Source: an uncultured Sulfuricurvum sp.
GTDB taxonomy: Bacteria > Campylobacterota > Campylobacteria > Campylobacterales > Sulfurimonadaceae
Assembly: GCA_903844635.1 (NCBI GenBank)
Contig: CAIMUF010000055.1
Span: 1 to 64,000 of the forward strand
Direction of reading: 5' to 3'
Length of the DNA stretch: 64,000 bases
Shown here: positions 621 to 22,672 of the stretch, piece after piece
Layout: each line of letters opens with the position of its first letter
Position numbering within the stretch: the first letter of the stretch is position 1
Notes under the pieces: generated by a model
Seen by the model: the letters and a program-made list of their open reading frames with translations, nothing else
Told to the model about the DNA's origin: nothing
Databases searched by the model: none
Position numbers and translations under genes: made by a program

Positions 621-3392
621 ATGTCTGTAATTGTAAGCAATCCCAAAGAAGTCGCTGAGTTTCTGAACATTCAGCTCACCCGAAAAAATAAAACCATACT
701 GGAAAACTCTCTCCAAAATCCCCTTCTTGCTGGTGTTCCAAGTGTTTCTATCGAGCGCTATCTTAGCCGTTTGGTTCAGTCGAAAAAATATACGATTGTT
801 CTCGTGCGTCAACAAGGCGAACCTCCTCACGTCCGCCGTTATATCTCTAATATTATTTCTCCGGGAACGAATTTTGATTACATTGCCGAGCCCAGTGAAA
901 ATTACATCGCCTCGTTACTCATCGATCAAAACAACGGCGTGTATTCGGTGGGCTATTCTGCTATCGATGTAGGGACGGGTAAAACACTTATCAAGGAGAT
1001 TCATGGTTCGCGAGAAGATAAAACGTATGCTCTGGATGAAGTTTTTACTCTTCTGCAAAGCTATCAAACTTCAGAGGTAGTGGTGACATTTTGCGACTCC
1101 CAGATCGATGAAGAAGAAGTCAATCGTTATTTAGAGCTCAAAAGCCATCATCGCAGCATCAAAAATGAAAAACGGCTTCGCATTGATTACCAAAATGAAC
1201 TGTTTGGGCGTATCTATCAAATCCGTTCACTCTTAAGCCCGATTGAGTACCTCGATATGGAACGGTATGCGTATACGTCGGAATCGTTGGCGGTGTTGAT
1301 TCACACGATCATTGACCATGACCCCGCTATCATTGAAAAGATGAATCGACCGACATTTTTGGGGACTGCGCGTTATATGTATTTGGGAAACAACGCGTGC
1401 GAGCAGCTTGGGATTATTTCACGTGATCATGATGAGATGACGGTGCTGAAACTCATCGATAAAACTTCTACAGCGATGGGAAAACGGCTTCTTCGTGAGC
1501 GACTGCTTAACCCTATCTGTGATGCTAAGCTTTTGGAAGATCGGTATGATTTAATCGAAAAGATGACGGATCATATTGCCCCTTTGGAAAGCAAGCTCAA
1601 AGAGGTTTATGATTTAGAGCGAATCCTTCGTCGTCTTAAACTGGGCAAACTTCATCCCTTCGAGCTTGCGTATTTTTATGCGTCACTTACCGCTGCTGAA
1701 AAATTATTTGAGGATGCAAAGAGCCTTGGGATTAGTTATGATAAAGCGAGTGCTCAAGAGTGTGCACTGTGTGCATCGGAGTTACGACGAATTTTTGTCA
1801 TTGAATCGTGTGCCAAATTTCGACGTGATCAGGTGGATGTTAATCTTTTTAACGAGGGTATTGACCCTGCCATCGATGCACTTGAACAACTGCAAAATAC
1901 CAATGAGCTTAAGTTGCAAAGTATTATCGAACACATCGATACGTTTTTCGACAACGGCAGTGGATATGCCTCTATCGGATGGCTGGAGAGTGAGGGATAT
2001 CATCTGGTGATGACTCGTAACCGTTATGTGAGTATTGAAGAGAATCTGCATAACAGCTTTTTTACGTTAGAGGGGCAACACCATTTTTTCCGTGATTTTC
2101 AGATACGAAAACTCAAAACGACTGTCAAACTTTCCTCTGCGCTGCTCGATGAACTCTCCATCGAAAATGCGGGGGCAAAATCGCGAATGCTCGCTCAAGT
2201 ACGTGAGCGGTATCAAGAATATTTAGAGGGCATTGAAAAGAAGTTTTCGCACGCCATTGAGCATCTCATCTCGTTTTTGGCGTTGGTCGATGTATCGCTT
2301 AGCGGTGCCAAGTGTGCCATACAGTTTCGATACGTTCGTCCTCAAATCGTCTATGATGTTCCAAAGGCGTTTGTCGAAACGGTAGGATTGCGTCATCCTC
2401 TCATAGAATCGCGAGAAGAGAACGGGATTTTTATCCCCAATGATCTTTTTTTAGGCTCTATCGAACAGCGAAGTTTTGAGGAACATACGACGATTGAGGC
2501 ATCAAAGGGAGAAGATGTTAAAGGGGTTCTTCTCTATGGAATCAACTCCAGCGGAAAGTCCTCTTTAATGAAAAGTATCGGCTTGGCAGTGGTGATGGCA
2601 CAGGCAGGATTTTTTGTTCCGTGTGCGATGATGCGGTTTTCTCCCATCGATAAGTTACTGACTCGTATCGTCTCCAAAGACAATCTCTATAAAGGGCTTT
2701 CGACTTTTGCAGTAGAGATGCTCGAACTGCGAAATATTTTCAACCGTGCGACGGAAAATACCCTGATTTTAGGAGATGAAATTAGTCACGGCACGGAAAC
2801 AGAATCAGCATTGGCTATTGTTGCCAGTGCAATTTTAAGGCTCAAAGAGTTGGGAAGTTTGTTCATTTTTGCAACGCATCTCCATCAGCTTTCATCCCTT
2901 AGTGAAATCGAAAAAGCAAAAGGGATCGTATTACTTCATTTGGGTGTCTATTATGATGAAGAGAGTGATAAACTCGTTTATGACCGTAAACTAAAAAGTG
3001 GAAGCGGCAGTACCCTTTATGGTTTGGAATTTGCCAAATCCCTCCATATGGATGAAACGTTTATCCAAAAAGCGTACGAAATCCGTGGACGTATTACAGA
3101 TAATGGACACGATGCGTCGTTGCTCAAACGAAACAAAAAGAGCCGCTACAACAGCAAGCTGTATCTGACAAAATGTGCGCTGTGCGATGAAGCGGTCGAT
3201 GAAGTGCATCATATCATCCCACAAGCCAGTGCAGATGAGGGTGGTTCAATCGGACATTTCGGGATGAATCATCGTTACAATCTGATCCCGCTATGTGGCA
3301 ATCATCATCGCCTAGTACACGAGGGAAAAATCGCCATTCACGGATTTGTGATGAGCGAAGAGGGTTTACGGCTTAGTTATTCACAAACCTAA
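621..3392 (+). CDS. mutS: MutS7-type DNA mismatch repair protein with C-terminal HNH nuclease, 5'-truncated
   Basis: MutS-family ATPase of 923 residues. The frame enters in the middle of mismatch-binding domain I ([13 protein letters not shown] ... [15 protein letters not shown]), runs through connector, lever and clamp regions, and reaches the ATPase with Walker [10 protein letters not shown] near residue 640 and Walker B LILGDE near 715. A C-terminal HNH domain follows: CALC near 852, VHHIIPQ, and [10 protein letters not shown] near 885-895. MutS with HNH at the C-terminus is the MutS7 subfamily known from epsilonproteobacteria, octocoral mitochondria and giant viruses, thought to combine recognition and nicking in one chain. 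The segment that should carry the Phe-X-Glu mismatch-reading motif (GDFFE-like) is absent: an in-frame TAG at 588-590 blocks upstream extension and no other frame of 500-620 encodes it. I read this as a 5' truncation at the junction with AT-rich DNA. The product may still bind ATP and DNA but probably not mismatches. Confidence 0.85.
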
Positions 3393-3405
3393 AGGGATAC
3401 CTTCA

Positions 3406-5340
3406 ATGACTGAATCAAAAATATACGATACATTAAAAAATTATGGCTTTTTAATTACCCCTTATTGCTCTTTTGGACTGACTGAAACTCCTTCGATTGA
3501 TTTTTTTCCCGTTGCACTCAAAATAGAGTCTGAAAAAGTAGTCCATAAAAGTAATTTTGGTGCGGTCAAGCTCAATATTAACTCGATGGAAGCATTAGAA
3601 CGTGCCAAAGATGAGATTATCGCCAATGTGAGGGCAAAAGAGGTACTTCTCGACGCAACTGACCGATTTATCGCGACACAGATGGTTAGCGGTATCGAAC
3701 TGTATGTGGGGCTTGTGGACGATGATATATTTGGTAAAACCATTGTATTTGGGATGGGCGGTGTATTTTTAGAACTGTATAAAGATGTTTGTTACATTGA
3801 TATCTATGCGGACGAGGTAGAGATACAACGCGCTATTGGACTGACTAAAATATCCAAAGTCTTTGAAGGTTTCCGGAGTTTTGATTTTACTATTGATACC
3901 GCTGTTGCATTTATTCGGCGTGTCCAAAACTTTGCCAAGGCTAATCCTGACATTATAGAACTCGATTTTAATCCGGTAATACTGACCAAAGAAGGGTTGA
4001 AAATTGCCGATGCCCGTATCAAAAAAGGGGAACCGAAACTTGAAAAACTAGGAACGCTACGAGAGAATAGACCTCCATTTTTTACTAACCAAAGGGTCGT
4101 GCTCATCGGTGCCTCTTCGGATCCGACCAAAGTCGGTTACTCCATCGCCAAAAATTCTCTTAAGTATGGCGGTGAGCTGTTTTTTGTGAATGCCAAAGGG
4201 GGTGAACTTTTCGGTAAAAAACTCTATACGAGCATTGCGCACATAGAGGGAGATATCGATACGGCGGTTATTATGATCCCCTCAAATACCGTTATTGAGT
4301 CTATTAAAGAGTTAATTCCCAGAAATCTTAGAAATCTCATCATCATCTCCGCAGGCTTTAAAGAAACTGGGGACAACGAGTCTGAACAGCTCATTGCAAC
4401 GTTGAGCAATGAGCACAATTTTAATGTAATCGGGCCTAACTGCTTGGGGTATCTCAATGGCGCTGAAAACCTTAATCTAACGTTTGGGATTGATGGATTA
4501 AAAAATGGAAACTTGGCACTTCTATCCCAATCAGGTGCTGTACTGTCCGCCCTTATGGATAAAGCGTATGATGCGGGAGTCGGTTTTTCGCATCTCGTCT
4601 CATGCGGTAATATGGTGGATTTAGATTTTGCGGAGATGATCGATATGCTCAACCGAGAAGAGACGTGCAAATCTATCTCGATCTATGCCGAAGGGATACA
4701 AAACGGCAAAGAGTTTTTAAGAGCGATTAGGAAAAGTCAAAAGAAAATCTACATCTTTAAAACAGGAAAATCTGCTCAGAGCAAGAAAGCGGCTTTTTCG
4801 CATACGGGCAATCTCAGCGGAAACTATGCGATGTTCAAAGGGCTTATCGAATCAGTGGGGGCAAAGATCGAGGAGAATATCGAAGCACTTTTGTTTAACC
4901 CTTCCAATGAAGTCAATAATATTCTCATCGTAACCAATGCCGGCGGTCCGGCTACGATCTTGACCGATTATATCATCGATCAGGGAAAAACGCTTTATAC
5001 GCTCAGTAAGGATGAACTAGATGCACTGAATGAGGTACTTCCATCCAACTGGTCCAAGAATAATCCTGTGGACATTATCGGGGATGCAATGGCAAACCGA
5101 TATGAGAAGACTTTAGACGTTGTAAGTAAATTTGAGGGGGTTGATTTGATCTATCTGCTCGTAACTCCTCAGTGTATGACAGACACCCTTGCTATCGTAC
5201 AGCTGTGTGAGCGTGATTGGGGTAAAAAGATATACCCGATACTTTTGGGCGGTCATGAGATGGAAGAGGCAAAAAATTATCTCCGAAGCCGACAAAAGCT
5301 TTTTTTCAAAACCCTTCAATCGGCAACGTCGTTTTTATAG
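3406..5340 (+). CDS. ADP-forming acyl-CoA synthetase (acetate-CoA ligase type), beta-alpha order
   Basis: 644-residue NDP-forming acyl-CoA synthetase, converting acyl-CoA + ADP + Pi to acid + CoA + ATP or the reverse. Residues 1-215 form the ATP-grasp (beta) half: VALKIESEKVVHKSNFGAVKL, GIELYVGLVDDDIFGKTIVFGMGG, and ELDFNPV. Residues ~220-340 are the Rossmann CoA-binding domain (VVLIGASSDPTKVG), followed by the ligase-CoA domains (LLSQSGAVLS, SISIYAEGI) with the phospho-accepting histidine in FSHTG at about residue 465. The usual bacterial order is alpha then beta; here the ATP-grasp comes first, a known permutation in this superfamily. It starts 13 bases after mutS7 and may be cotranscribed. 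The acyl substrate cannot be told from sequence; acetate is only the common case. Confidence 0.85.
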   Translation: MTESKIYDTLKNYGFLITPYCSFGLTETPSIDFFPVALKIESEKVVHKSNFGAVKLNINSMEALERAKDEIIANVRAKEVLLDATDRFIATQMVSGIELYVGLVDDDIFGKTIVFGMGGVFLELYKDVCYIDIYADEVEIQRAIGLTKISKVFEGFRSFDFTIDTAVAFIRRVQNFAKANPDIIELDFNPVILTKEGLKIADARIKKGEPKLEKLGTLRENRPPFFTNQRVVLIGASSDPTKVGYSIAKNSLKYGGELFFVNAKGGELFGKKLYTSIAHIEGDIDTAVIMIPSNTVIESIKELIPRNLRNLIIISAGFKETGDNESEQLIATLSNEHNFNVIGPNCLGYLNGAENLNLTFGIDGLKNGNLALLSQSGAVLSALMDKAYDAGVGFSHLVSCGNMVDLDFAEMIDMLNREETCKSISIYAEGIQNGKEFLRAIRKSQKKIYIFKTGKSAQSKKAAFSHTGNLSGNYAMFKGLIESVGAKIEENIEALLFNPSNEVNNILIVTNAGGPATILTDYIIDQGKTLYTLSKDELDALNEVLPSNWSKNNPVDIIGDAMANRYEKTLDVVSKFEGVDLIYLLVTPQCMTDTLAIVQLCERDWGKKIYPILLGGHEMEEAKNYLRSRQKLFFKTLQSATSFL

Positions 5341-5348
5341 GTTGTGCT

Positions 5349-5608
5349 TTACGACGAGCAGCTCAGATTTAAATTCTGATTCTGAGCCGGTGTTATGCCT
5401 GCATAACGCTCAAATTTTTCGTGTTCATCGTATGGATTTTGCGCCAATAAGAGCAAGTCATTGACGAGGGTAAAATCGTTTTTTTCAGCTAAGTCGATGG
5501 CTTCTTGGAATATGTAGTTTTTGAGTATGTACTTGGGGTTGGATTTTTAAGCGGAGTCGGATCAAGGTCGAGATAGGGAGCAGTTAGGGTTAGGTTTGAT
5601 AGTTTCAT
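5349..5608 (-). pseudogene. selO: remnant of selO (YdiU-type protein adenylyltransferase) with large internal deletion
   Basis: Reading the minus strand from an ATG at 5608 (preceded by a GAGG ribosome site) gives MKLSNLTLTAPYLDLDPTPL then KNP, the typical SelO amino end. Near 5539-5549 the reading frame shifts by one. The sequence then continues as the SelO carboxyl end: SNPKYILKNYIFQEAIDLAE, LLLLAQNPYDEHEKFERYAG and a terminal LSCSS at the stop 5349-5351. SelO is normally about 480 residues and this locus could encode about 85, so the whole kinase-like core is gone. The shared stretch AAAATCCA at the joint suggests a deletion between short matches. The Cys-Ser-Ser end corresponds to the selenocysteine site of eukaryotic SelO. 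It fills the otherwise empty 330-bp gap between the acyl-CoA synthetase and FapA genes. Confidence 0.8.
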
Positions 5609-5669
5609 ACAAAGAGTTTTACCTCAAAAAGATAACATCTCTAGGTGTGAATGAAAGAAGTTTATTTTT

Positions 5670-7472
5670 TTAGGATTCAAAGATGATTTTTTTATCTTCA
5701 CCTTCGCGGCGAAGTCGAACATGTAAAATATTTCCTTGCGGAGATGATGCATACTTTTGGGATGTTTTTGGATCTATAAACAGGATGCGAGTATGTCCAT
5801 TATACGTTCCATGATGGGTGATCGTTGCATGCACGTCCGCATCATAGAGCATATTTAAATCGTTTTCGATGGAGTGAGCATGCTCTTCAAGTTCTTTGAT
5901 CGTTGTTTTTTCATCGGAGAGCTGAGCAAGGGAATGTTTATATTGTTGGACGCGTACCATATCCGCTTTTATGGGAGAAGCATTTTGGGCAAGAGCTGCT
6001 TTGATTTTTTCTTGGGTTTGTTTGATGCGGTTTAATTGCTCTTTGAGTGCAAGCTCTTTACCCAAAAGATGTTTCCCTTTTTCCTGAATTTGTGTATAAA
6101 CTTCTTTTAGTTGCAGTTCCAGCTGATTGATTTGTTCTAGATAAGAGGGAATTGCTCTTGGATTGATAATGAGGTTGTTTCCATCTCCAATAATACTTTG
6201 GATGGTGATCGATTTTAGCGCGGTAATATTGGCATTGGAATAGAGAATATCAATGACAACATGATCGGCTATAATCTCTCCCCCCATCATTTTACTAACA
6301 TGAACCGTTTGCGCTTCTACTCTTCCCGCTTCCAAAATTTCTATCGTGGCATTTTTGGCCTTTAAATCGCCTCGATGGAGATGAATGCTTGCATTTTCTT
6401 GAACTTCGATAAACGATTTTTTATGGGTTTGCGCACCGATAGTGAGCTCACATGCTTGAATCTTTGTGTTACTTCCAATGGTTCCTTGAATATCAAGTGT
6501 TTGAACATCAATAGTGATTCCTGAACCGACCGCATCTTTGGTTAGATCCTCACGGTTTATTTTTACATGAATATCTTTATCGCTTCCCGTTTCAATGGAG
6601 CCTGTGTCTTTGAAGCTTGCATGTTTTAGCCGAAGTTCATGTGCGATGGAAAAAATGCCATTGATGCGTTGGACGTAGCCTGATTGTTTAGAATAAAAAC
6701 GAATAGAGAGAGCATCTTCTTCGGCTCGAATCGTTTCGTGGTCAATCGTTATTGCATTGGCATAGCGAATTAAAGCTTCTCCTGCATGGAGGTACTCTCC
6801 CGTACAACTGCGGCCATTTCGGCCATTGACGGCAAAAGTATATTCAAAGATCAAATCATCGGGAAGGACACCTTCGATAAGTTTCTTGTCGTGAGTCTCT
6901 TTTTTATAGTGGAGCACTACACTGTCGTTAATAGGCGGTATTGGGGGAAAGAACTTGGTGACACCTATCCGATAGGGTTCATGAAGTGCTCCCTCTTTTT
7001 GAATCTTGAGAAGCAATTGGTTGATTTGGACATCAAAGTCACTATCTGTGATACCGATAAGCAAGCCTGCCTGAAGTTTTTTGGAACGAATTTCTTCTTT
7101 GATGTAGTCTTGAATCCCTTTTTTCAGTGGAAGGAGGGAGGACGGATCGATAATGACAATGGCTTTTGTTTTGTTTTTATCCGATGCTAAACTCAGATGA
7201 AGGTCAAAGTAGGGATGCGGTTGTAAGGGATGAATGATAATCTGATATTCTTGACGGACTTCAAAAGGAGATGATCGTATTTCAACCTCTGTAGTGACAT
7301 CTTCAAGCCGTGAAACTTCCAAAGTACGCCACTCTTCATCCACAGTTCCCCGATAGTAGGTTTGATAAGACAGGAGATCAAAACCGATTTTTTCAACCGG
7401 TATCCCCCATGCTTGCGCTGCTTGTGTTAATGCGGTACTAACACTTGACGTGGTTGTTTTGAAAGCTTGCAC
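5670..7472 (-). CDS. fapA: FapA/DUF342 family beta-helix protein
   Basis: 600-residue protein of the FapA (DUF342) family. The N-terminal ~200 residues are a mixed alpha/beta region. The middle has the repeating short-strand pattern of a right-handed beta-helix (IGSNTKIQACELTIGAQ, GRVEAQTVHVSKMMGGEIIA, IIGDGNNLIINP). A long coiled coil (about 455-545) follows, and the C-terminus is basic. In Vibrio, FapA influences polar flagellar assembly, and many homologues have no known role. The start is GTG at 7472, four bases after the RND gene stop, so it is the last gene of the efflux operon and probably translated with it. The weak ribosome site makes the exact start uncertain. Linking a FapA protein to an RND pump is unusual and its role here is unknown. 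Confidence 0.8.
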   Translation of the reverse strand: MQAFKTTTSSVSTALTQAAQAWGIPVEKIGFDLLSYQTYYRGTVDEEWRTLEVSRLEDVTTEVEIRSSPFEVRQEYQIIIHPLQPHPYFDLHLSLASDKNKTKAIVIIDPSSLLPLKKGIQDYIKEEIRSKKLQAGLLIGITDSDFDVQINQLLLKIQKEGALHEPYRIGVTKFFPPIPPINDSVVLHYKKETHDKKLIEGVLPDDLIFEYTFAVNGRNGRSCTGEYLHAGEALIRYANAITIDHETIRAEEDALSIRFYSKQSGYVQRINGIFSIAHELRLKHASFKDTGSIETGSDKDIHVKINREDLTKDAVGSGITIDVQTLDIQGTIGSNTKIQACELTIGAQTHKKSFIEVQENASIHLHRGDLKAKNATIEILEAGRVEAQTVHVSKMMGGEIIADHVVIDILYSNANITALKSITIQSIIGDGNNLIINPRAIPSYLEQINQLELQLKEVYTQIQEKGKHLLGKELALKEQLNRIKQTQEKIKAALAQNASPIKADMVRVQQYKHSLAQLSDEKTTIKELEEHAHSIENDLNMLYDADVHATITHHGTYNGHTRILFIDPKTSQKYASSPQGNILHVRLRREGEDKKIIFES

Positions 7473-7475
7473 GTA

Positions 7476-9185
7476 TTACGGCTCGATAATAGAAACGGCT
7501 TTACGTTCATGAAAATTAAAATGCTTTTCAAGATTCGAATTATCCAGTAAGATGGGGACAACGATCAAAGAAGCGACTACGGCTGCTATGGTACCGAAAA
7601 TAAGGGAAACACCTAACCCGCCAAATACCGCATCACTGGCTAAAAGCGTAGATGCCAGAATAATCGCTGCAGCTGTAAGGAAAATAGGTTTTGCTCTCGT
7701 AGCGGCTGCGTAAGCAATTGCTTCTTTTTTTGGCATGCCTTTATCGACCATCAATGATTTGGTGAAGTCAATGAGTAAAAGTGAATTGCGTGAACTGATA
7801 CCGATGAGGGCGATAAATCCAATGAGTGAGGTTGCGGTGAGGAAAAAAGTATCCGCCGTAAACAAGTCCATAATAAAGTGACCGAAAAGAACCCCTACGA
7901 TAGAGAGAAAACTTCCAAGCAAGATGATTCCACTGAGAACAAAGCTCTTATAATAAATAACCATCAGTAAAAAGATAAGGACGAGTGCTGCAATAAATGC
8001 TCCTCCTAAATCGACAAACGTATCGAGCGTGACTTCCATTTCCCCATCCCAAATCAACTCATAGCGTTCTTTGGATTTTTTGTCGATAAGTTCGAGATTA
8101 AACAGGCCAATTTTATGAATTTCATAGTTATCGGTAAAGGTATCTAAAATAATATTGCGTGCATCCATGAGAGGATACACTTGGGAAACCATATCGGTTT
8201 CTGCCAGAACATTCGTCATTTGATGGAGATTTTTTGTCACAATCATCGGATTGGATTTTACCGATACGATTTCAACAACTTCGGTGAGAGGAATCATCAT
8301 TCCCATGCTGTTCATCAATTTTAGGCTCGAAAGTTTAAGAGAGATTGCATTGAGATCTTTGGAGCTGAACTTTTTACTCGCAGGGTCAAGAACCAAGAAA
8401 ATAGGAATTTGCTCAGAGACTTCCGATGAATTTTTAACGGCAATGGACATACCTTCAAATGCTAGGTACAAAATATCATTGACATGTTTGATGTCTAATC
8501 CAGAGCGGGCAATTTTATCACTGTTGACGCGTACTTCGAACTTTTCAAAAATTTCATCTTGCATGATATCAATATCGACAAGCCCTTTAGTCTGTTGAAA
8601 GACACCTTTGATACGTTCGCTCAACTGTCGGATACCTAATGCATTGCTACCGTACACTTCTGCTACGATAGCAGCCATTGTTGGAGGACCTGCCGGCGGT
8701 TCAATAAATTTGATATTGGTTTGAGGGATGATGCTTTCACATTGTTTTTGTATCTCTGGACGAAGACGCTGTACCATCATATAAGAAGGCTCAGAACGGT
8801 CGTGTTTTTTGGTAAGATTGAGAACGACTTCAGCAACATTTTCTGAATTTTTGAAATGAGAGCCTTTGATAAGTCCTGCAAAATCGAGCGGTGAACCTGA
8901 ACCTAAAAAGACTTCCATATCGAGTGCTTCAGGCTCTTTTTGAAGAATTGTGGTGACACATTGGCTAACGCGCTGTGTTTGCTCGATCGAGCTTCCGCTT
9001 GGGAGATCAATGTAGACTGAATACGTGTCATTGTTTTTTCCAGGAAGCATTTTAGCCATGACAAGCTGAGTGGGTATCATCGCAATCGAGAGGATAAATG
9101 CAGCGAGTGTCAGCCAAAGAAATAGCTTTTTTTTAGACGAAGAATTGAGAACAGCCAATAGATAATTTTCAAATTTTTGATACAT
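7476..9185 (-). CDS. RND efflux permease, C-terminal half
   Basis: 569 residues matching the second pseudo-repeat of an RND transporter. One transmembrane helix near residues 25-45 is followed by a periplasmic porter region (YSVYIDLPSGSSIEQT ... VYGSNALGIRQLSERIKG) and then helices 8-12, including the GFIALIGISSRNSLLLIDF segment. The start codon overlaps the stop of the upstream half by one base (TAATG). The two proteins together (531+569) equal one normal RND subunit of about 1,050-1,100 residues, divided exactly between helix 7 and the linker before helix 8. They should assemble in the inner membrane with the adaptor and the outer-membrane channel encoded just upstream. Substrate unknown. 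Confidence 0.85.
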   Translation of the reverse strand: MYQKFENYLLAVLNSSSKKKLFLWLTLAAFILSIAMIPTQLVMAKMLPGKNNDTYSVYIDLPSGSSIEQTQRVSQCVTTILQKEPEALDMEVFLGSGSPLDFAGLIKGSHFKNSENVAEVVLNLTKKHDRSEPSYMMVQRLRPEIQKQCESIIPQTNIKFIEPPAGPPTMAAIVAEVYGSNALGIRQLSERIKGVFQQTKGLVDIDIMQDEIFEKFEVRVNSDKIARSGLDIKHVNDILYLAFEGMSIAVKNSSEVSEQIPIFLVLDPASKKFSSKDLNAISLKLSSLKLMNSMGMMIPLTEVVEIVSVKSNPMIVTKNLHQMTNVLAETDMVSQVYPLMDARNIILDTFTDNYEIHKIGLFNLELIDKKSKERYELIWDGEMEVTLDTFVDLGGAFIAALVLIFLLMVIYYKSFVLSGIILLGSFLSIVGVLFGHFIMDLFTADTFFLTATSLIGFIALIGISSRNSLLLIDFTKSLMVDKGMPKKEAIAYAAATRAKPIFLTAAAIILASTLLASDAVFGGLGVSLIFGTIAAVVASLIVVPILLDNSNLEKHFNFHERKAVSIIEP

Positions 9186-10780
9186 TAGTGAGCCTCTGTA
9201 GGATGTTGAGGTTTTTTGAGCAATCGTATTGCCAAATAAGGGGTAAAGATGTAAGCAACAAAGAGCGATGCGATGAGGGCAACAGGGACATTGGCAGGGA
9301 TTGGTTTCATAAACTGACCCATCATCTGTCCAACAAATGCCATAGGAACCATGGTCAAGATAATGGCGAGTGTGGCAATATTGGTAGGTGCTCCAATCTC
9401 GTCGGTAGCTTCGATCATCAACTGATCGGCATCCCTTTCATGTGCATTGGGGGCGTGAAAATGGCGATGGATATTTTCAATAACGATAATCGCAGCATCG
9501 ACCAACAATCCAAGACTCAGCAAGAATGCAAAGAGGGTGATACGGTTAATCGTCTGACCTGTGAGATAAGCAATAAAGAGAGTAATCGCCAAAATAGCAG
9601 GAACCGTAAAGGTAACGATAAGTGACTCTCTCCATCCCAAAACAAAGGCAAGCAAGATGGCGATGATCACGATGGAGAGCAAGAGGTGAAAAACCAGCTC
9701 ATTAACTGCTTCATTCGCACGTTCACCATCATTACGAGTAATAACGTAGTGAATCCCTTGTGCTTCCATAAGCGATTTATATTTGGTCAGTTCTGTTTTT
9801 ACGGCATCGGCGATGATAACGGAATTCGTCCCTTGCAGTTTTGAAACAGTTAGGGTCACTTGATCTTTGAGAGGAGAAAATTTGCCGTCACTTCCTTTGA
9901 CACTTACGAGTGCGGATTTGAAGTTTTGAATGTCCTGTCCTGAGGTTACAGTGGCTACATCACGCAAATAGATGGCAGAACCGCCGTATTGTGCGACGAT
10001 AATATTACCGACATCATCAACACTTTCAATGGCATTTTTAACTCCGATCATTACGATCTCATTTGATTGGGTTTTCCCTTTTATCTCAGGGACATTGTAG
10101 GAAAGTGCTTGGACGGATTGGACAATCTGGCCCAGTGAGAGATTGTAGCCCGAGAGGCGATTAATATCGACTTGGACGTTAAATTGATGTTTTTTAGCGC
10201 CCTTGATGTCAGTAACAGCAACATTGGGAAGGCCATTAATATGATGTTGGATAAATTTTACACGATCATAAAGAATGGTAGGATCGATAGCCGAATTATT
10301 GGAGTAAAAAGCGACCGATACGATAGGAATATCGACGTCAATGTCGAGAGGTTTAATAATCGGTTGCATAGCACCTTTTGGGAGAATGCCCATATTTTGC
10401 ATGATTTTGTCATAAATTTTTAGATTTGAATTTTCTTTGGCTTCACCTATAAAAAAAGCGGCATTGATGACGGCAACATTATCCATTGCCATTCCGTGGA
10501 TATTTTCAATCCCTTTGACTTCTTTTAGTTTTCGCTCTAAGGGTTTGACTATGACGTTTTCAATCTCTTTTGCTGTAGCACCGGGCATAGCAATGATGAC
10601 AGTTGATCCACTTACTACCATTTGGGGGTTTTCTTCACGCGGCATCATCATAAGGGCAATGTAGCCGATAATGATGAGGAATATCCCCAAAATTGGGGTG
10701 AGCGGATTACGTAAAAAACCATGTGCAAGTTTTCCGGCATAATCTTTAGGATGATAAGGTGCGCTATGAGAGGACATCAA
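9185..10780 (-). CDS. RND efflux permease, N-terminal half
   Basis: 531 residues covering helices 1-7 and the first porter region of an RND pump: LTPILGIFLIIIGYIALMMM (helix 1), MPREENPQMVVSGSTV, and the helix-4 proton-relay segment GLLVDAAIIVIENI. That segment has a single aspartate followed by alanine, as in heavy-metal-type RND proteins, rather than the Asp-Asp of AcrB; this is only a hint at class. The protein ends after helix 7 (YLAIRLLKKPQ), and the second half is a separate, translationally coupled gene. The adaptor gene ends 5 bases upstream of its start. Confidence 0.85.
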   Translation of the reverse strand: MMSSHSAPYHPKDYAGKLAHGFLRNPLTPILGIFLIIIGYIALMMMPREENPQMVVSGSTVIIAMPGATAKEIENVIVKPLERKLKEVKGIENIHGMAMDNVAVINAAFFIGEAKENSNLKIYDKIMQNMGILPKGAMQPIIKPLDIDVDIPIVSVAFYSNNSAIDPTILYDRVKFIQHHINGLPNVAVTDIKGAKKHQFNVQVDINRLSGYNLSLGQIVQSVQALSYNVPEIKGKTQSNEIVMIGVKNAIESVDDVGNIIVAQYGGSAIYLRDVATVTSGQDIQNFKSALVSVKGSDGKFSPLKDQVTLTVSKLQGTNSVIIADAVKTELTKYKSLMEAQGIHYVITRNDGERANEAVNELVFHLLLSIVIIAILLAFVLGWRESLIVTFTVPAILAITLFIAYLTGQTINRITLFAFLLSLGLLVDAAIIVIENIHRHFHAPNAHERDADQLMIEATDEIGAPTNIATLAIILTMVPMAFVGQMMGQFMKPIPANVPVALIASLFVAYIFTPYLAIRLLKKPQHPTEAH

Positions 10781-15116: not shown

Positions 15117-15133
15117 AAATATTACTTCTCCCT

Positions 15134-15162
15134 TTGACTTTTAATGGTGAAAAGACTATACT
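15134..15162 (+). promoter_or_regulatory. predicted sigma-70 promoter of the exopolysaccharide operon
   Basis: TTGACT (15134-15139), 17-bp spacer, TATACT (15157-15162), 35 bp before the first gene of the operon (15198). It is the best-formed promoter seen in the window. Confidence 0.65.
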
Positions 15163-15197
15163 TAAAATTATAAATCTTTCTAATAAAGGTTAAGACG

Positions 15198-16466
15198 ATG
15201 GATATCCAAATTATACTTCTCATCCTCGTTTGTTTATTTTCATTCTCTATCGGTTTTATTGTTTTTGGGACGTTTCTTCGTCGTTGGATTCACAAAAAAC
15301 AGTATACGCAGATCGATCATCTCAAATCCCTTTATCAGCCATGGGTGGATGAAGCATTAAGTGGAAATACTCAGCATATGAGCGAATTTCAGCGTGTGGT
15401 TGACGAAGATGCTTTTGGGCGCGAGGCGTTAGAGCAGATTGTGTGTGAAAAATGTATGTCGGGTGAAAAAGTGATTTTACCTTTGATTCAAGAGATTGGA
15501 TTTGTCCGGTTATACGAAAAGAAACTACTATCAAAACATCTAAGTATACCTCTGCGTTCACGTGCAGCGGATCGTTTGGGCCGAATGCAAAGCGAAGAGT
15601 CGGTCGATTTGTTATTTCAAGTGCTGAAAGAAGAGAGTGATAAGAAGGATCTGGCAAACAGTATCATCAAAGCGATGGCGTTGATCGGAAGCGAGAAAGC
15701 GTTGGAATCTATTATCACTCTTTTCCCGTTGATTCTCAAAAAAGAGGTTATTACCCCTAAGAACGGTGAAATGATTTTACTAATGTTTGCACCGTTGTAC
15801 CGTGAACATTTGGTGAAAGCACTACATAATTTTCAACACTCAGGAGAGAGACTCTCCGTGATTGTCACTCTGGATGCGCTAAGCCGTTCGGCAGTGAGTG
15901 AGGATATGGTCGCGGTGGCGATGGAGATGCTGGCGTCTGAAGATGCGGAGATTCGTGTCCGATGCTTGCGCTTGATTGCCAATGCAAATGTGCAAAGGGT
16001 TGAAATGACGCTACATGAGATTAGGCTTTGTTTACAGGATAGGCAGTGGTTTATTCGGTTGCAGGCTATAGAAGTTGCACGACGATTTTTTTGCCCAGAG
16101 AGTCTGCCCGAGATGGTATTGTTGCTTCGTGATGCCCATTGGCAAGTGAGACGTGCAGCAGCCGGAATGATTGTCAGCCGGGGGGATGAGAGTTTAGAAA
16201 CCATCATCGGAGTGATCGAGGGAGAAGATATCTACGCCAAAGAGGCTATTTGTGAAGCGATCCATCTGGAAGGGTATGTGCATCAGCTTATCAATCACTT
16301 GACACAATCATCACTCCTGTTTAATTCCTCTGCACGTATCCTCTTTTATATGCACTCCATCGGACTTTCTTCAAGTTTGAAGGAGGTGGTATTGACTCAT
16401 CCAAGCGGTGAAATTCGACAAAATCTGCATCTTCTTATTCATCCACAAGGAGGAGACAATGACTAG
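15198..16466 (+). CDS. membrane-anchored HEAT-repeat protein of the exopolysaccharide operon
   Basis: 422 residues with one N-terminal transmembrane helix (about 4-28, IILLILVCLFSFSIGFIVFG) and a soluble body of alpha-helical HEAT-like repeats. The repeats are clear near LRSRAADRLGRMQSEESVDLL, AEIRVRCLRLIANANV, WFIRLQAIEVARRFF and HWQVRRAAAGMIVSRGD. Such repeats are protein-interaction scaffolds. First gene of a five-gene run in which every stop overlaps the next start; its stop overlaps the glycosyltransferase start by 8 bases. It probably forms part of the inner-membrane synthase complex, but no homologue of known function is recognised. Confidence 0.75.
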   Translation: MDIQIILLILVCLFSFSIGFIVFGTFLRRWIHKKQYTQIDHLKSLYQPWVDEALSGNTQHMSEFQRVVDEDAFGREALEQIVCEKCMSGEKVILPLIQEIGFVRLYEKKLLSKHLSIPLRSRAADRLGRMQSEESVDLLFQVLKEESDKKDLANSIIKAMALIGSEKALESIITLFPLILKKEVITPKNGEMILLMFAPLYREHLVKALHNFQHSGERLSVIVTLDALSRSAVSEDMVAVAMEMLASEDAEIRVRCLRLIANANVQRVEMTLHEIRLCLQDRQWFIRLQAIEVARRFFCPESLPEMVLLLRDAHWQVRRAAAGMIVSRGDESLETIIGVIEGEDIYAKEAICEAIHLEGYVHQLINHLTQSSLLFNSSARILFYMHSIGLSSSLKEVVLTHPSGEIRQNLHLLIHPQGGDND

Positions 16467-17916
16467 TTATTTTATTTCAGGAGTCATTTTTTTTAATATC
16501 GCGGTGGGGGTTTACTATGGTTTACTCAACAGTGTGTATACTCTTTTACTCTCCATTGCCCTTTTTACCGTGATACGACAAGGCTCTCGTGCCAAATATA
16601 CCGAGGATCGTTTATGGCTTTATTCAAATGAAACACCTCCTGTGTCGATTCTGATCCCCGCGTACAATGAAGAGGATGTGATTTTACGTACGGTCGCTTC
16701 TGTCCTGACACAAGAGTACCCGTTATTCGAAGTGATTGTGATCAATGACAGCTCGGAAGATAAGACATTGCAACTTTTGATTGAAACCTATAGTCTTTAA
16801 AAGGTAGATCAGCTGTATCGGGATATCCTTAAGACGGAACCCATCAAAGGGTTTTACTATAATAAAGAATATCCGAACCTTTTAGTGGTTGACAAAGAAA
16901 AAGGGGGGAAAGCCGACGCGCTCAATGCGGGTATCAATATTAGCCATTATCCCTATTTTTGTTCTGTTGATGCTGACTCGATTTTGGATACTTACGCACT
17001 GCTTAAAATCATGGTACAGGTCGTTGAAAGCAAGGTTCCCGTAATCGCCTGCGGAGGTGATGTCAGGGTGTTAAACGGGATGAATCATCCTGAGGTTCAA
17101 GGATATGCAGCTGAATTGCCGGAGAGTTCATTGGCAATGTTTCAGATTGTTGAATATCTGCGAAGCTTTTTATTTGGTCGGATCGGCTGGAATGCATTAG
17201 GCGGATCGGTGATTTTATCGGGGGCATTTTCCCTCTTTTTAAAAGATGCCGTCGTACGAGCAGGAGGGTATGATCGCAAGCAGGTTTCAGAAGATCTTGA
17301 AATCGTACTGAAATTGCACCGTTTGTATGCTCAAGAGAAACGTCCGTATAAAATCGATTATGCACTGGACGCTATTTGCTGGACTGAGGTTCCTGAAAAA
17401 ATCAATCAGCTCGGTCGTCAGCGTCGCCGATGGCAGGTGGGGTTTTTACAGGCATGCTGGAAACATCGGGGGATGATTTTCAATCCGAGATATAAAACGG
17501 TAGGATTGTTTTCTCTCCCTTATTTTCTTTTCTTGGAATCTACCGGATCGGTTATCGAACTGTTGGGCTTTGTAGTGATGCCGCTGGCGTATTATTTTGG
17601 CCTATTAAGTGTCCATTATTTTATCCTCTTTTTATTGCTTGCATTGGTGTATGGGACGTTCTTATCGGTCGCGACCATTTTGCTTGAAGAGATGACCATT
17701 AAACGGTATCCCTCATGGAAACATTTGGCTCGGTTGCTATTGTATGGATCGATTGAACATTTCGGGTATCGGCAAATCAATGCATGGTGGCGTTTGCAAG
17801 GGATATTTCAATTTTTCTTTATGCCGTATTCATGGGAATATGTTCATAAATCAGGGAAAACACATTCGGAGCATGAATCCCATAAAACATTAGGTTCAGA
17901 AGATGCCAAGCAGTGA
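16459..17916 (+). pseudogene. processive family-2 glycosyltransferase interrupted by an in-frame TAA
   Basis: One continuous 485-codon frame from the ATG at 16459 (after GGAGGAGAC) with a single stop, TAA at 16798-16800 (codon 114). The same frame continues uninterrupted on both sides. It has two N-terminal transmembrane stretches, VSILIPAYNEE near 61, INDSSEDKT near 95, then (after the stop) KGGKADALNAG near 148, DAD near 171, SED near 277, QRRRW near 319, and several C-terminal helices (about 355-450). These are the D, DXD, (T/S)ED and Q-RW motifs of PgaC/BcsA-like inner-membrane polysaccharide synthases. No PilZ domain. The N-terminal fragment alone could not catalyse. A GTG at 16885 could start the remainder, but that would lack the first nucleotide-sugar motif. 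A point mutation, a sequence error or readthrough are all possible. Confidence 0.85.
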
Positions 17917-20227
17917 ACAGCTTGCTGAACAAGCACTCTCTACTGGGGATTTTCAAGAAGCGGTAAATCTCTTTAAACGCGCACTGGAATCGGGAGAAAC
18001 TTTTCAAAAATGGTCTGGTTTGGCTGTTACCTACGAAAATCTGCAAGCGTGGCCCGAGGCTCGATGGGCGTCACACAAAGCATTGGAGTTGGATACAAGG
18101 GATACTCGTATGCCGGCATTGCAAAAGAGGGTGGATACGAACGAAGCAAATGAAAAAAAAGTAGGCAGTAGGAGAGGGGTTTCTTTTCGAGTGCATAGTG
18201 ATCAGATACAGATAAAAAAAGGGAAAAAATGGGAAGAATTTACCCTTCGAGGTATTAATCTCGGATTGGGACTGCCCGGATATTTCCCTGGTGAATTTGC
18301 CGTTATGAGCGGAACGTATCTTAAATGGTTTGCAATGATGCACGACGCCGGATTTAATACAGTACGGATTTATACCCTCCATCCTCCGGCATTTTATCGT
18401 GCTCTTGCCCTTTATAATCAAGCATCGGTGAAAAAACTCTATCTTATTCAAGAAATATGGCTTGAATTACCGGATGACAATGATTTTAACGCAACTAAAT
18501 ATAGTGCGTATGTTACCCAGCAAGTTCATAACGCTGTGGATGCGATTTACGGAAATTTGACACTGCCGCCCATGAGGGGAAATCCAGAAGGTCACTATAT
18601 TGACGATGTTTCGCAGTGGACTCACTCTTTTTTATTGGGAAGAGAATGGGAGACCTGTGCTGTCGCCTTGTATAACACTATAATGAAGAATGAAAAGGGA
18701 GACTACTTCGGAGAATACATTATGATGAGGGAGGGAACTCCTTTTGAGAGGTGGGTTGCAGCGCAATGTGATACGATCCAAGGCTATGAAACCAATACGT
18801 ATCGAGATTCCCATCCGGTATCAGTCGTAAATTGGCCGACGCTTGATCCGTTGGAACATAAAAGCGAAGCGTCATATTATGAGGGGTTGAAACGCCAAGG
18901 GTTGATAAGTGTACCGCCCGATGTGTGTCAGATGGATGAAGATATCGAGAGCTTGGATCTTTTAAAATTCAGAAGTGTTCAAGGGGGAGGATTGTATGCA
19001 ACGTATCATGTTTATCCCTACTATCCCGATTTTTTACTGGTCGAGGGATTAGAGAGCAAAAATCCGTATGGAGAGTATTTAAAAAAACTCAAGCATCATC
19101 ATCAGGGAATGCCCATAGTCATAGGAGAATTTGGGGTACCCTCTAGCCGGGATGCAGCGCATTGGCATCCGCTGGGGTGGAATCACGGCGGCTTGAATGA
19201 GAAAGCACAAGGAGAGATTAATGTCCAGATGATGAAAACTATTTTTGAAACCGGATTGTCGGGAGCAATTCTCTTTAGCTGGTTTGACGAATGGTTTAAA
19301 AATAATCGTCTGTTTGTCCCCTATCATCTTCCCCGTGAGCGTCGATCTTTGTGGTTTAATGCTCAGAATGCTGAACAGACCTTTGGATTGCTTGCGATGT
19401 ACCCTGGATATCCGGATAAAAAGTGCACTCTCAGCGGAAATACGAGAGAATGGAATGAAGCGCAAATCCTCTATGAAGGAGCTGTGCAGTGCAAGGCTAT
19501 GAGTGATGAAGGATTTTTGTATCTTCAGCTGATGACGAAGGAAAAAATTGATTTTGATACGTCATCGTTTTTAATCTGTTTGGGAACGTGCGGTGATACT
19601 CAGGGAGAATACCGTTTGCCCGTAAGTTCTGAGTTGCTGAGTCCGATTCCTCTCACGTTTTGTATTGAACTCTCCGGAAAAGAGAAAAGTCGCATTTTGA
19701 TAACAGCACCGTATGACAAATATCTCAATCATGAAAGTAAAGTGATTCGTCCTATCGCGTCAATACAGGGGGGATGGGTAGAGATGGTGCAGTGTGTAAA
19801 CGAACGGCGATTGAGTAAAGATTTGAAAACCTTTTATCCTCCCCGTTTTATTACGATGAGCCCGTTGAGATTTGGGACACTTCTTTCGGAGTCTCCCGAT
19901 TCTAACTCGTTGAGCGATTTTTATTATGAGGGCAATACGATTGAAGTTCGACTTCCGTGGGCATTGCTCAATGTGACCGACCCCAGTTCGAAAAGTGTTT
20001 TATGGGTGGATCATCAAGGTGCCTATCGTAAAACTGAGGGGATCAATGTGGTGCTTCTGAAGCAGTCTTCCCAAACGTACCATTTTATCCCACGCTCCGG
20101 TAAAAAAGAGGATGTTCAAATGATTCACTGGGATGAATGGAACACTCCTACGTATCATACCCACCTCAAAGAGAGTTACGGCATTGTAAAAAAATATTTG
20201 CATTCAGCGGGGGAGGAGAAAAAATGA
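17903..20227 (+). CDS. TPR and glycoside-hydrolase-like (clan GH-A type) protein
   Basis: 774 residues starting 14 bases inside the glycosyltransferase gene. Residues 1-75 are two TPR-like helix pairs (AEQALSTGDFQEAVNLFKRA; WPEARWASHKALELD). Residues ~105-440 look like a (beta/alpha)8 hydrolase: FTLRGINLGLGLPG, MHDAGFNTVRIYTLHPP, TYHVYPYYPDFL, and IGEFGVPSS with the putative nucleophile Glu409, then AILFSWFDEWFK. The remaining ~330 residues are beta-rich. There is no signal peptide or membrane helix, so as written it stays in the cytoplasm, which is odd for a polysaccharide hydrolase; it may trim, transglycosylate or bind nascent glycan at the synthase. Family number cannot be assigned by eye. 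Confidence 0.7.
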   Translation: MPSSEQLAEQALSTGDFQEAVNLFKRALESGETFQKWSGLAVTYENLQAWPEARWASHKALELDTRDTRMPALQKRVDTNEANEKKVGSRRGVSFRVHSDQIQIKKGKKWEEFTLRGINLGLGLPGYFPGEFAVMSGTYLKWFAMMHDAGFNTVRIYTLHPPAFYRALALYNQASVKKLYLIQEIWLELPDDNDFNATKYSAYVTQQVHNAVDAIYGNLTLPPMRGNPEGHYIDDVSQWTHSFLLGREWETCAVALYNTIMKNEKGDYFGEYIMMREGTPFERWVAAQCDTIQGYETNTYRDSHPVSVVNWPTLDPLEHKSEASYYEGLKRQGLISVPPDVCQMDEDIESLDLLKFRSVQGGGLYATYHVYPYYPDFLLVEGLESKNPYGEYLKKLKHHHQGMPIVIGEFGVPSSRDAAHWHPLGWNHGGLNEKAQGEINVQMMKTIFETGLSGAILFSWFDEWFKNNRLFVPYHLPRERRSLWFNAQNAEQTFGLLAMYPGYPDKKCTLSGNTREWNEAQILYEGAVQCKAMSDEGFLYLQLMTKEKIDFDTSSFLICLGTCGDTQGEYRLPVSSELLSPIPLTFCIELSGKEKSRILITAPYDKYLNHESKVIRPIASIQGGWVEMVQCVNERRLSKDLKTFYPPRFITMSPLRFGTLLSESPDSNSLSDFYYEGNTIEVRLPWALLNVTDPSSKSVLWVDHQGAYRKTEGINVVLLKQSSQTYHFIPRSGKKEDVQMIHWDEWNTPTYHTHLKESYGIVKKYLHSAGEEKK

Positions 20228-21021
20228 GAGAGCTGTTACGGCGCGATTTTTTAAAACTCGGTCTCTTCACTACGGTAGCCTTGGGTGGGAGTATTTCGCT
20301 TTTTGGCAACGATAACACGAATACGGTTGCGGTGTTAATGTACCATGATGTCAACTCCTATTCAAAAGATCCGTATACTGTTTCACCAGCTGATTTTGCA
20401 GCAGAAATGGAGTGGCTTTTTAGGGAGGGGTATACCACTCTTTTTGTCGATGAGGTGGAGTCATTTGTTCGAAGGGGAGGAAAAAAAGGGATTGTTCTGA
20501 CTTTTGATGATGGATATTTTTCTTTTTTATCGTACGCGTATCCTTTTCTTTCACGTTATGGATTTAAGGCGACGATCAATATTATTGGAGAATCGGTAGG
20601 TGCATGGACAACATACAGAATAAATCGTCCTATGCTCAGCTGGGATGAATACCGTTATCTTTTGGGTGAGGGGAGGGTACGACTGGGATGCCATTCGTAT
20701 CGGCTTCATCATGAACCATCCGCTATTTTTAAACTTTCAGAGGGAGAACTGTTGGACGATTTGTCACACTTCCAAGAAACTCTAAAGGCTGAAACGGGAA
20801 AAATAAGCTCTGTTATGGCATGGCCTTTTGGGGAATATCGGCAACAGCATATTGAGAGTGCAAAAAAAATTGGATTTGAGTATTTTTTAACGTCAAATGA
20901 GGGATATTGGAATATTATAGAGAATGGGATTGATATGATCCCGCGTCTTTCTATTTCATACAAACTGGATCTGATATCGTATCGACAGTATATTCGAGGA
21001 GGAAAAAATTATGAATCATAA
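20224..21021 (+). CDS. Tat-exported polysaccharide deacetylase (CE4)
   Basis: 265 residues from the ATG at 20224, which overlaps the previous stop as ATGA; a longer reading from 20137 would cover the upstream gene and hide the signal. The N-terminus RRDFLKLGLF is a twin-arginine signal. NodB-type catalytic motifs: TFDDGY at 93-98 (Asp95/Asp96), HSYRLHH from His157 (metal ligands 157 and 162), and AWPFGEY. It would remove N-acetyl (or other acyl) groups from the polymer in the periplasm, like the N-terminal half of PgaB. Tat export implies folding, perhaps metal loading, in the cytoplasm. Confidence 0.85.
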   Translation: MRELLRRDFLKLGLFTTVALGGSISLFGNDNTNTVAVLMYHDVNSYSKDPYTVSPADFAAEMEWLFREGYTTLFVDEVESFVRRGGKKGIVLTFDDGYFSFLSYAYPFLSRYGFKATINIIGESVGAWTTYRINRPMLSWDEYRYLLGEGRVRLGCHSYRLHHEPSAIFKLSEGELLDDLSHFQETLKAETGKISSVMAWPFGEYRQQHIESAKKIGFEYFLTSNEGYWNIIENGIDMIPRLSISYKLDLISYRQYIRGGKNYES

Positions 21022-22588
21022 AAAACTATACCATTTACTCAGTTTGAGTGCAGCAGTTGTCGTTGGTGCAATGGTTCAACCGGTTTATGCGCAAGGAGAG
21101 AATTCTTCAGTGATGTCGGTGAACGTTCAAAACAAAGCATTTGAACTCAAGCGTGAAGCGGAGAGCTTGATCGCTCAGGATAAGATTGATGAGGCATTGA
21201 TACGGTATGAAGAGGCGTTGAAAAGTGATCCCACTGTCCTCTCCGTTTCTGAGAAGATTCAATTGGCCCGCTATTACTCATGGGTGGATAAGCTGGACGA
21301 GGGGATTGCGCACTTAAAACAGTTGCGCGAAGAACATCCTGATAACAGTGAAGTAAAAACGCTTTTGGCCCGCTTTTTATCCTGGAAAAATAATCCGAAG
21401 GAAGCGATGAGGCTGAGTGATGAGGTATTGCAGTCCGATCCTCTCAACAGCGAAGCGCTCCATGTCAAAGCAGATCTATTGGCGTGGAATTCCAATGCTT
21501 CTGATTCTTTGGAATATTATCAAAAAGCCTTGGAACGCGGCGATAATTTCGATGTCCGATTGGGATATGCCTATGCACAGCTTTCCGTCGGTGAACTGGA
21601 TAAGGCGATCAGCGAACGCTCAAAACTGGTTCCCCGTTTTCCGTATCAAACGACGAATTTAGCGAAGCTTGACAGTGCAATTTTAAAAGCGAAACAGGGT
21701 GAGCTTCCCACCGTGCAAAGCGGTAACTCGATCGATTTCCCCGCCCTTTCGTATTATCATGACAGTGACGGAAATATCGTTAAAACCATTCGAACCACCT
21801 ACAATTTTAATGTGAATAATTTTTCAGGAGATGTGAGTTATCGGCATGGAAGTGCAAGCAATGGGACTCTCTCAAACCGTTTTGACAGTATTAGTACCAA
21901 TATGGGAACGGCATTGTATTCCTCTCTAAGAGCCCATGCCGGGATTGGTTACGTGATTGACCGTTCTAATAGTACCAACAACACGATGACCGGTCATGCG
22001 GGGGTGAATTATTATCGAGGGGATTGGGAAGCGGGGGCGGTATTGTATCGAGAGGCGCTGTTAGATACGGCGCAACTGATTGATAACGCGATTAGTATAA
22101 ACGGCGGCGAAGTACACCTCTCAAAGGCGCTGGAAGGTCATAATGCAATTTATGGAAGTTACGCGCACCGTTCATATTCGGATGATAATGATGCGAATGA
22201 TCTCAGAGTGGGAATAAAACATGTGTTTGATCTCACTGACCCTCGCGTGACCGTTGGATATGCCATCCGTTATCTTGATTTTGAGCGTCAAAGCGGAGGG
22301 GGATATTTTGATCCGGACAATTTTATTTCGCATCAACTTTTTGCAGGATTAGAGTATCGAGAGGGAAAATCGACCTATTATCTTGACCCGTATGTCGGGT
22401 TCCAATCCTTTGACCGATATGGCGCATCGTCGAATGATTTTTATGGCGGCGGAAGTATCCGATGGCGTTATCAGTTGACCCCAAAACTCTATTCGGAACT
22501 GAATGCAGAGGCAGGTAATTATGCACTGGATCAGGCGGCAGGGTACAATTATTATATGGTAGGTGCGCGTCTAAATATTGCATTTTAA
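21011..22588 (+). CDS. TPR plus beta-barrel outer-membrane exopolysaccharide exporter (PgaA/BcsC-like architecture)
   Basis: 525 residues with a signal peptide (LLSLSAAVVVGAMVQPVYAQG), about four to five TPR units (40-225: EALIRYEEALKSDPTV, DEGIAHLKQLREEHPDN, LNSEALHVKADLLAW) and a C-terminal region (about 245-525) of alternating strands with aromatic girdles ending in LNIAF, an outer-membrane C-terminal signature. This is the design of PgaA and BcsC, where periplasmic TPRs receive the modified polymer and a barrel exports it. AGGAGG precedes the ATG, which overlaps the deacetylase by 11 bases. Last gene of the operon. Confidence 0.8.
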   Translation: MNHKKLYHLLSLSAAVVVGAMVQPVYAQGENSSVMSVNVQNKAFELKREAESLIAQDKIDEALIRYEEALKSDPTVLSVSEKIQLARYYSWVDKLDEGIAHLKQLREEHPDNSEVKTLLARFLSWKNNPKEAMRLSDEVLQSDPLNSEALHVKADLLAWNSNASDSLEYYQKALERGDNFDVRLGYAYAQLSVGELDKAISERSKLVPRFPYQTTNLAKLDSAILKAKQGELPTVQSGNSIDFPALSYYHDSDGNIVKTIRTTYNFNVNNFSGDVSYRHGSASNGTLSNRFDSISTNMGTALYSSLRAHAGIGYVIDRSNSTNNTMTGHAGVNYYRGDWEAGAVLYREALLDTAQLIDNAISINGGEVHLSKALEGHNAIYGSYAHRSYSDDNDANDLRVGIKHVFDLTDPRVTVGYAIRYLDFERQSGGGYFDPDNFISHQLFAGLEYREGKSTYYLDPYVGFQSFDRYGASSNDFYGGGSIRWRYQLTPKLYSELNAEAGNYALDQAAGYNYYMVGARLNIAF

Positions 22589-22589
22589 T

Positions 22590-22631
22590 ACAAGGTAAAA
22601 AACTCCCTGTAACACCTTGTTTCTTAAGAAA
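22590..22631 (+). terminator. weak hairpin and palindrome after the exopolysaccharide operon
   Basis: ACAAGGT (22590-22596) pairs with ACCTTGT (22614-22620); a second perfect palindrome TTTCTTAAGAAA follows at 22620-22631. There is no clean T-run, so termination is only possible; the palindrome could instead be a regulator site for the malic enzyme gene. Confidence 0.35.
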
Positions 22632-22672
22632 GTGTGGAGTAAGATAGTTTAGATTATCTTTGGGAGACTTTT

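Follow-up and report, generated by a model that had tools for sequence, protein, structure and literature searches.

We analysed a stretch of 64,000 nucleotides (hereafter the window; contig CAIMUF010000055.1) from an uncultured Sulfuricurvum sp., a sulfur-oxidising member of the Campylobacterota represented by a draft genome in 86 contigs, and concentrated on an operon of five genes on its + strand (15198-22588). An earlier note on this DNA had described five overlapping genes behind one promoter, encoding an exopolysaccharide synthase system of unfamiliar composition. The layout was borne out: the coordinates of the open reading frames (ORFs) were confirmed, the stop of one gene overlaps the following start by 4-14 bases at all four junctions, and a promoter match of 10/12 consensus positions lies 35 bases 5' of the first ATG. 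The features are as follows (TPR, tetratricopeptide repeat; GT2, glycosyltransferase family 2; GH, glycoside hydrolase; CE4, carbohydrate esterase family 4; Tat, twin-arginine translocation).

15121..22658, + strand: extent of the cassette that carries the operon, present in the window and replaced by 13 bases in the sister genome G074
15134..15162, + strand: candidate sigma-70-like promoter, TTGACT-17-TATACT
15198..16466, + strand: HEAT-repeat protein, 422 aa (Pfam HEAT_2, 9.7e-16)
16459..17916, + strand: GT2 polysaccharide synthase, interrupted (Pfam GT2 families on both halves, 1e-14)
16798..16800, + strand: in-frame TAA at codon 114 of the GT2, ahead of the DAD motif; the frame is intact in L006, L007 and L008
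17903..20227, + strand: TPR and GH-A-like protein (TPR-GH), 774 aa, with putative catalytic residues E248 and E409
20224..21021, + strand: PgaB/IcaB-like CE4 N-deacetylase with an RRDFLK Tat signal (Pfam PF01522, Polysacc_deac_1, 1.8e-19)
21011..22588, + strand: TPR protein with a C-terminal beta-barrel-like half and a Sec-type signal, putative outer-membrane exporter (TPR_19, 3.1e-16)

The candidate promoter is the top-scoring match on the + strand. Promoter-like sites are not in excess in the whole region (19 versus 16.9 +/- 3.2 in shuffled DNA), so it is the position of this site that argues for its role. Pfam and NCBIfam returned HEAT, GT2, weak TPR, Polysacc_deac_1 and TPR matches for the five products. 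The five-gene order is kept in three other Campylobacterota genomes (L006/L009, L007 and L008), a recurrence that the earlier note had set as a test, and the ratio of nonsynonymous to synonymous substitution rates (dN/dS) is below 0.25 for every gene in both pairs compared (against L006: HEAT 0.156, GT2 0.066, GH 0.113, CE4 0.195 and the barrel protein 0.100). Since the order recurs and all genes are under such constraint, the set is not a chance assembly. The domains, the conserved order and the purifying selection support a synthase-dependent exopolysaccharide operon, and we consider it likely from these comparisons that it encodes a pathway built around a HEAT-GT2 core, of a class apparently undescribed, with a hydrolase and a PgaB-like deacetylase as two chains and a TPR-barrel exporter.

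In known synthase-dependent systems, the GT2 is paired with PgaD, BcsB, PelD-type or fused cyclic di-GMP (c-di-GMP) domains. Here the gene next to the GT2 encodes the HEAT protein, for which hydropathy gives one transmembrane (TM) helix at residues 5-23 followed by RRWIHKK, and because this single N-terminal helix precedes a basic stretch, the HEAT repeats of the window protein are probably on the cytoplasmic side. Its proposed role as a replacement for PgaD or BcsB is thus unproven, one N-terminal helix with cytoplasmic repeats being unlike the periplasmic BcsB. HEAT proteins of the window type align with the HEAT partners found elsewhere with an hhalign probability of 98.6 over 337 columns; in the Halosolutus and Emticicia relatives, the annotated start showed no such helix.

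The pairing itself is widespread. A search with a Mesorhizobium GT2 returned plasmid records with a HEAT gene directly upstream in 14/14 cases (12 records were read, and an overlap in the feature list was used for two further Mesorhizobium records), including three haloarchaea, Devosia and Erythrobacter of the Alphaproteobacteria, Bacteroidota and Legionella. A PgaC search supplied nine other GT2 loci, and none of them has an annotated HEAT neighbour. Rhizobium HEAT matches were set aside, as no GT2 stands next to HEAT in the record read. In a tree of 25 rows, in which the window GT2 type is represented by the intact L006 sequence, 14 HEAT-linked GT2s fall on one side of a branch with support of 93/88; this branch occurs in 93% of bootstrap trees, and none of 500 shuffles was as low, while several deep forks are open and the Legionella and NfrB branches are long. 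We define a HEAT-linked GT2 group by HEAT adjacency and by this tree grouping, and the window operon shows both. The pairs recur mostly without a hydrolase and often with a TPR/YaiO barrel: the YaiO-HEAT-GT2 clusters of Mesorhizobium, Legionella, Bacteroides and Emticicia, and the response regulator-HEAT-GT2 clusters of haloarchaea, share the adjacent homologous HEAT and GT2 genes and, in diderms, an adjoining TPR/barrel gene, but no TPR-GH or CE4 was seen in them, a response regulator often being present instead. The five-gene set does recur, but the widely recurring unit is HEAT plus GT2, and the five genes are a rarer Campylobacterota elaboration.

The operon is rare. HEAT and full-length TPR-GH occur in the identical 4 of 200 family genomes, with one further TPR-only match in the TPR-GH search, and the TPR-barrel protein is full length in the same four; a fifth genome has a remnant of it, and one more match is weak and TPR-only. 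The GH was found in 2 of 397 genomes of a phylum-wide draw; it was absent from the viral contigs scanned, and phage protein families gave no match. Beyond Campylobacterota, the GH as a tblastn query returned three plasmid records, from Deinococcus radiophilus, Paenibacillus cellulosilyticus (two GH paralogues) and Planococcus maritimus, and GH, HEAT and GT2 are side by side in all three. The Planococcus genes (L012, 5000-12435) have VTC-domain, DUF4956 and CotH-kinase genes directly 5', a set reported next to Gram-positive pel operons (PMC7112168).

The GT2 retains the processive-synthase motifs DAD, S/GED (SED in the window) and Q-x-x-R-W (QRRRW in the window; alignment A4), as well as the C-terminal TM helices of the processive type. 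A frameshift was rejected, as a single frame is broken by one stop, and a relative with 88-95% protein identity has an intact synthase gene. The codons after the stop have a dN/dS of 0.056 against L006, and this low value implies that the TAA is young or an assembly error; unless it is such an error or is suppressed, this operon probably yields no polymer in the strain or consensus. We also considered whether the stop marks a pseudogene cluster that is being lost, as an empty site in G074 and a barrel remnant at the equivalent site in G082 would fit. This is quite unlikely, because the other genes are open and under purifying selection, the constraint after the stop would make any decay very recent, and, the genome being a draft of 86 contigs, the TAA may be a consensus error or a variant in the population.

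The site itself is variable. The operon lies on a discrete and movable cassette of 7.5 kb, and DNA identity to G074, an otherwise near-identical sister genome, is 95% in the flank ending at 15120 and 93.7% in the flank starting at 22659. The neighbouring EF-P, DJ-1, Lcl_C and malic enzyme products have 90-100% protein identity in G074, where the operon is absent; the upstream Lcl_C gene was rejected as an operon member, as it remains in G074 although the operon is missing. In G014, the operon is at another location, preceded by GGDEF and GGDEF-EAL genes, which is consistent with c-di-GMP control, and the Lcl_C site of this genome is without it. The equivalent site in G082 holds genes for a TPR protein, for an NfrB-like GT2 whose C-terminus matches MshEN weakly (0.0005) and for a UDP-N-acetylglucosamine 2-epimerase-like protein. 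Exopolysaccharide operons appear to replace each other at the site shared by G082 and the window and to be exchanged between close relatives. At this G082 locus (L036, G082:C8:116000-131000), we observed within 2441-7298 that the NfrA/NfrB-like and 2-epimerase operon is present, that the start of the malic-enzyme gene is duplicated, and that a decayed remnant of the window-type barrel gene, its C-terminus, is also carried.

The hydrolase and the deacetylase are separate chains, as had been claimed, encoded by two ORFs. The TPR-GH profile matches the Glu/Trp region of 9fz9, a solved structure of GH2 type (E 8.5e-5), and the conserved residues R155, E248, H369-Y371, E409 and W460 form a motif series resembling that of (beta/alpha)8 hydrolases. 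Enzymes of clan GH-A have Glu at beta-4 and beta-7 and Trp at beta-8, for which E248, E409 and W460 of the alignment are candidates. The sister entry 9g4n has Ala where 9fz9 has the Glu aligned to E409, a difference that we infer to be a designed catalytic mutation. Both Glu residues are lost in the Planococcus GH, and the first is lost in the second Paenibacillus copy. The CE4 protein scores 107.9 bits against TIGR03938, under the cut-off of 321.9 and over the N-terminal domain only, and its matches among PDB structures are PgaB. The Tat-type signal noted earlier was upheld by its RRDFLK motif, and TatC is encoded in the source genome.

A periplasmic location of the GH is not obvious. All four Campylobacterota GH proteins begin right in the TPR, without a TM helix or signal, and the open frame in the window could extend upstream by only three residues. 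This would suit a cytoplasmic pathway, in which the GT2, HEAT and GH proteins work on a storage glycan or a periplasmic one and not on an exported exopolysaccharide. However, 4/4 GH homologues from Deinococcus, Paenibacillus and Planococcus have N-terminal TM helices, and among the products of the operon are a Tat-exported CE4, a TPR-barrel protein and a processive-type GT2 with C-terminal TM helices, so that we regard the cytoplasmic pathway as very unlikely. The metal motifs of CE4, TFDDG and H-x4-H, are kept in the window and L006 and lost in L007 and L008 (alignment A5), where the CE4-like protein still has its RR motif and is under constraint (dN/dS 0.23, dS >1). A Tat signal kept on a CE4 that has lost its catalytic motifs, together with a signal-less GH, suggests without showing it that the Tat-borne CE4 may carry the folded GH across the membrane as an escort; the main alternative is that the GH stays in the cytoplasm.

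The last product resembles PgaA and BcsC in its TPR part, ends in Phe and has a conserved C-terminal half. Membership of the YaiO family was rejected by profile comparison, as the alignment is limited to the TPR part.

Among characterised systems, pgaABCD, which makes poly-beta-1,6-N-acetylglucosamine (PNAG), is similar in its GT2 synthase, PgaB-like CE4, glycoside-hydrolase activity and TPR plus barrel exporter. The window operon could accordingly be a divergent pga operon, with the GT2 as PgaC, CE4 and GH as a split PgaB, the TPR-barrel protein as PgaA and HEAT in place of PgaD; PgaC, PgaB and PgaA are indeed among the top NCBIfam neighbours of the GT2, CE4 and TPR-barrel proteins, and the PDB matches of CE4 noted above point the same way. 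However, the scores of all three are far under the equivalog cut-offs (for PgaC/IcaA, the GT2 of the intact relative has 133 bits versus 422.3; for PgaA, the barrel protein has 35 versus 367). PgaD is missing and HEAT is the first gene, the deacetylase and hydrolase are split, the deacetylase has a Tat-type signal, and the GH profile matches a GH2-type enzyme, not the hydrolase part of PgaB. The HEAT-linked GT2s are also separate from both PgaC sequences on the tree. Canonical pgaB (819.7 bits), pgaC (594) and pgaD (121), well over their cut-offs, are on another contig (C4) of the same genome, and the window operon is therefore a different system from PNAG; we give the divergent pga operon very little credence. 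On that contig (L023, 4323-8130), pgaB-pgaC-pgaD stand without pgaA alongside. Across all contigs of the draft, no protein reached the PgaA cut-off, and the best of the weak matches is the window TPR-barrel protein.

The nfrBA-ybcH operon of E. coli, which specifies the N4 glycan receptor (PMC8669469, PMC8669472), is also a small operon of overlapping genes with an inner-membrane GT2 and a TPR-barrel outer-membrane protein, but NfrB has an MshEN domain for c-di-GMP, which Pfam does not find on the window GT2, and HEAT, GH and CE4 are lacking. The cellulose operon bcsABZC shares the GT2 synthase, a GH-A-type hydrolase and a TPR-barrel exporter, whereas the window operon has CE4 and HEAT and, by Pfam, neither PilZ nor BcsB; the GT2 scores 34 bits against CelA/BcsA, under the cut-off of 699. 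As the earlier note had supposed, the set matches no characterised operon in the open-access papers searched, where we found no description of the HEAT-GT2 pair, and HEAT does not appear in the main text of an operon survey (PMC7112194).

In the pathway that we favour, the membrane GT2 would polymerise a nucleotide sugar and thread the chain across the inner membrane, with the N-terminally anchored HEAT protein as its dedicated partner, either scaffold or regulator. TPR-GH would trim the chain in the periplasm, the Tat-exported CE4 would N-deacetylate it in the window lineage, the two chains together doing the job of a single PgaB, and the finished chain would exit via the TPR-barrel protein. 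Several observations weigh against this pathway: the window GT2 is interrupted; the GH part has no Pfam family, and the AlphaFold2 model of its domain (two sequences, window and L006) has a predicted local distance difference test score of 33 and was not used; the window TPR-GH has neither signal peptide nor TM helix; the barrel half has no family or solved-structure match by sequence; and deacetylation is not a fixed step, because the CE4 catalytic motifs are gone in L007 and L008.

The substrate is most likely an N-acetylhexosamine, which is favoured because CE4 is PgaB-like and because glmS and a nucleotidyltransferase gene stand beside the Halosolutus HEAT-GT2. A hexosamine thus stays the best guess, as in the earlier note, but the argument made there from the deacetylase is weak, its motifs being lost in two of the four Campylobacterota versions. 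On the Halosolutus plasmid (L093, 5238-10562), the gene for this sugar-phosphate nucleotidyltransferase comes after HEAT-GT2, as does glmS, which hints that archaea may make a polymer of amino sugars. The Legionella HEAT-GT2 cluster has a nucleotide-sugar dehydrogenase and epimerases, which suggests that substrates vary among members.

A broader proposal, which we hold to be rather unlikely as a whole, is that HEAT-GT2 is a widespread undescribed synthase class of bacteria and archaea and, in addition, that the Campylobacterota GH hitchhikes with the Tat-signalled CE4, retained as an escort even if catalytically dead. If true, the HEAT partner, whose conservation extends from Campylobacterota and Deinococcus as far as haloarchaea, would be a new kind of synthase subunit, recognisable from gene order where current annotation gives only 'HEAT repeat domain-containing protein'. 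The dead deacetylase with the signal-less hydrolase poses a specific and directly testable question of export.

Two other loci in the window were observed. At 7476-10780 on the minus strand, an RND (AcrB-type) permease is divided between two neighbouring genes (~531 and ~569 aa), which match a different half of ACR_tran each. A pair of adjacent ORFs of matching size occurs in L009 (12705-16024), so that an assembly error is an unlikely cause of the split. At 621-3392, a MutS-type protein (domains I, III and V) carries a C-terminal HNH endonuclease domain.

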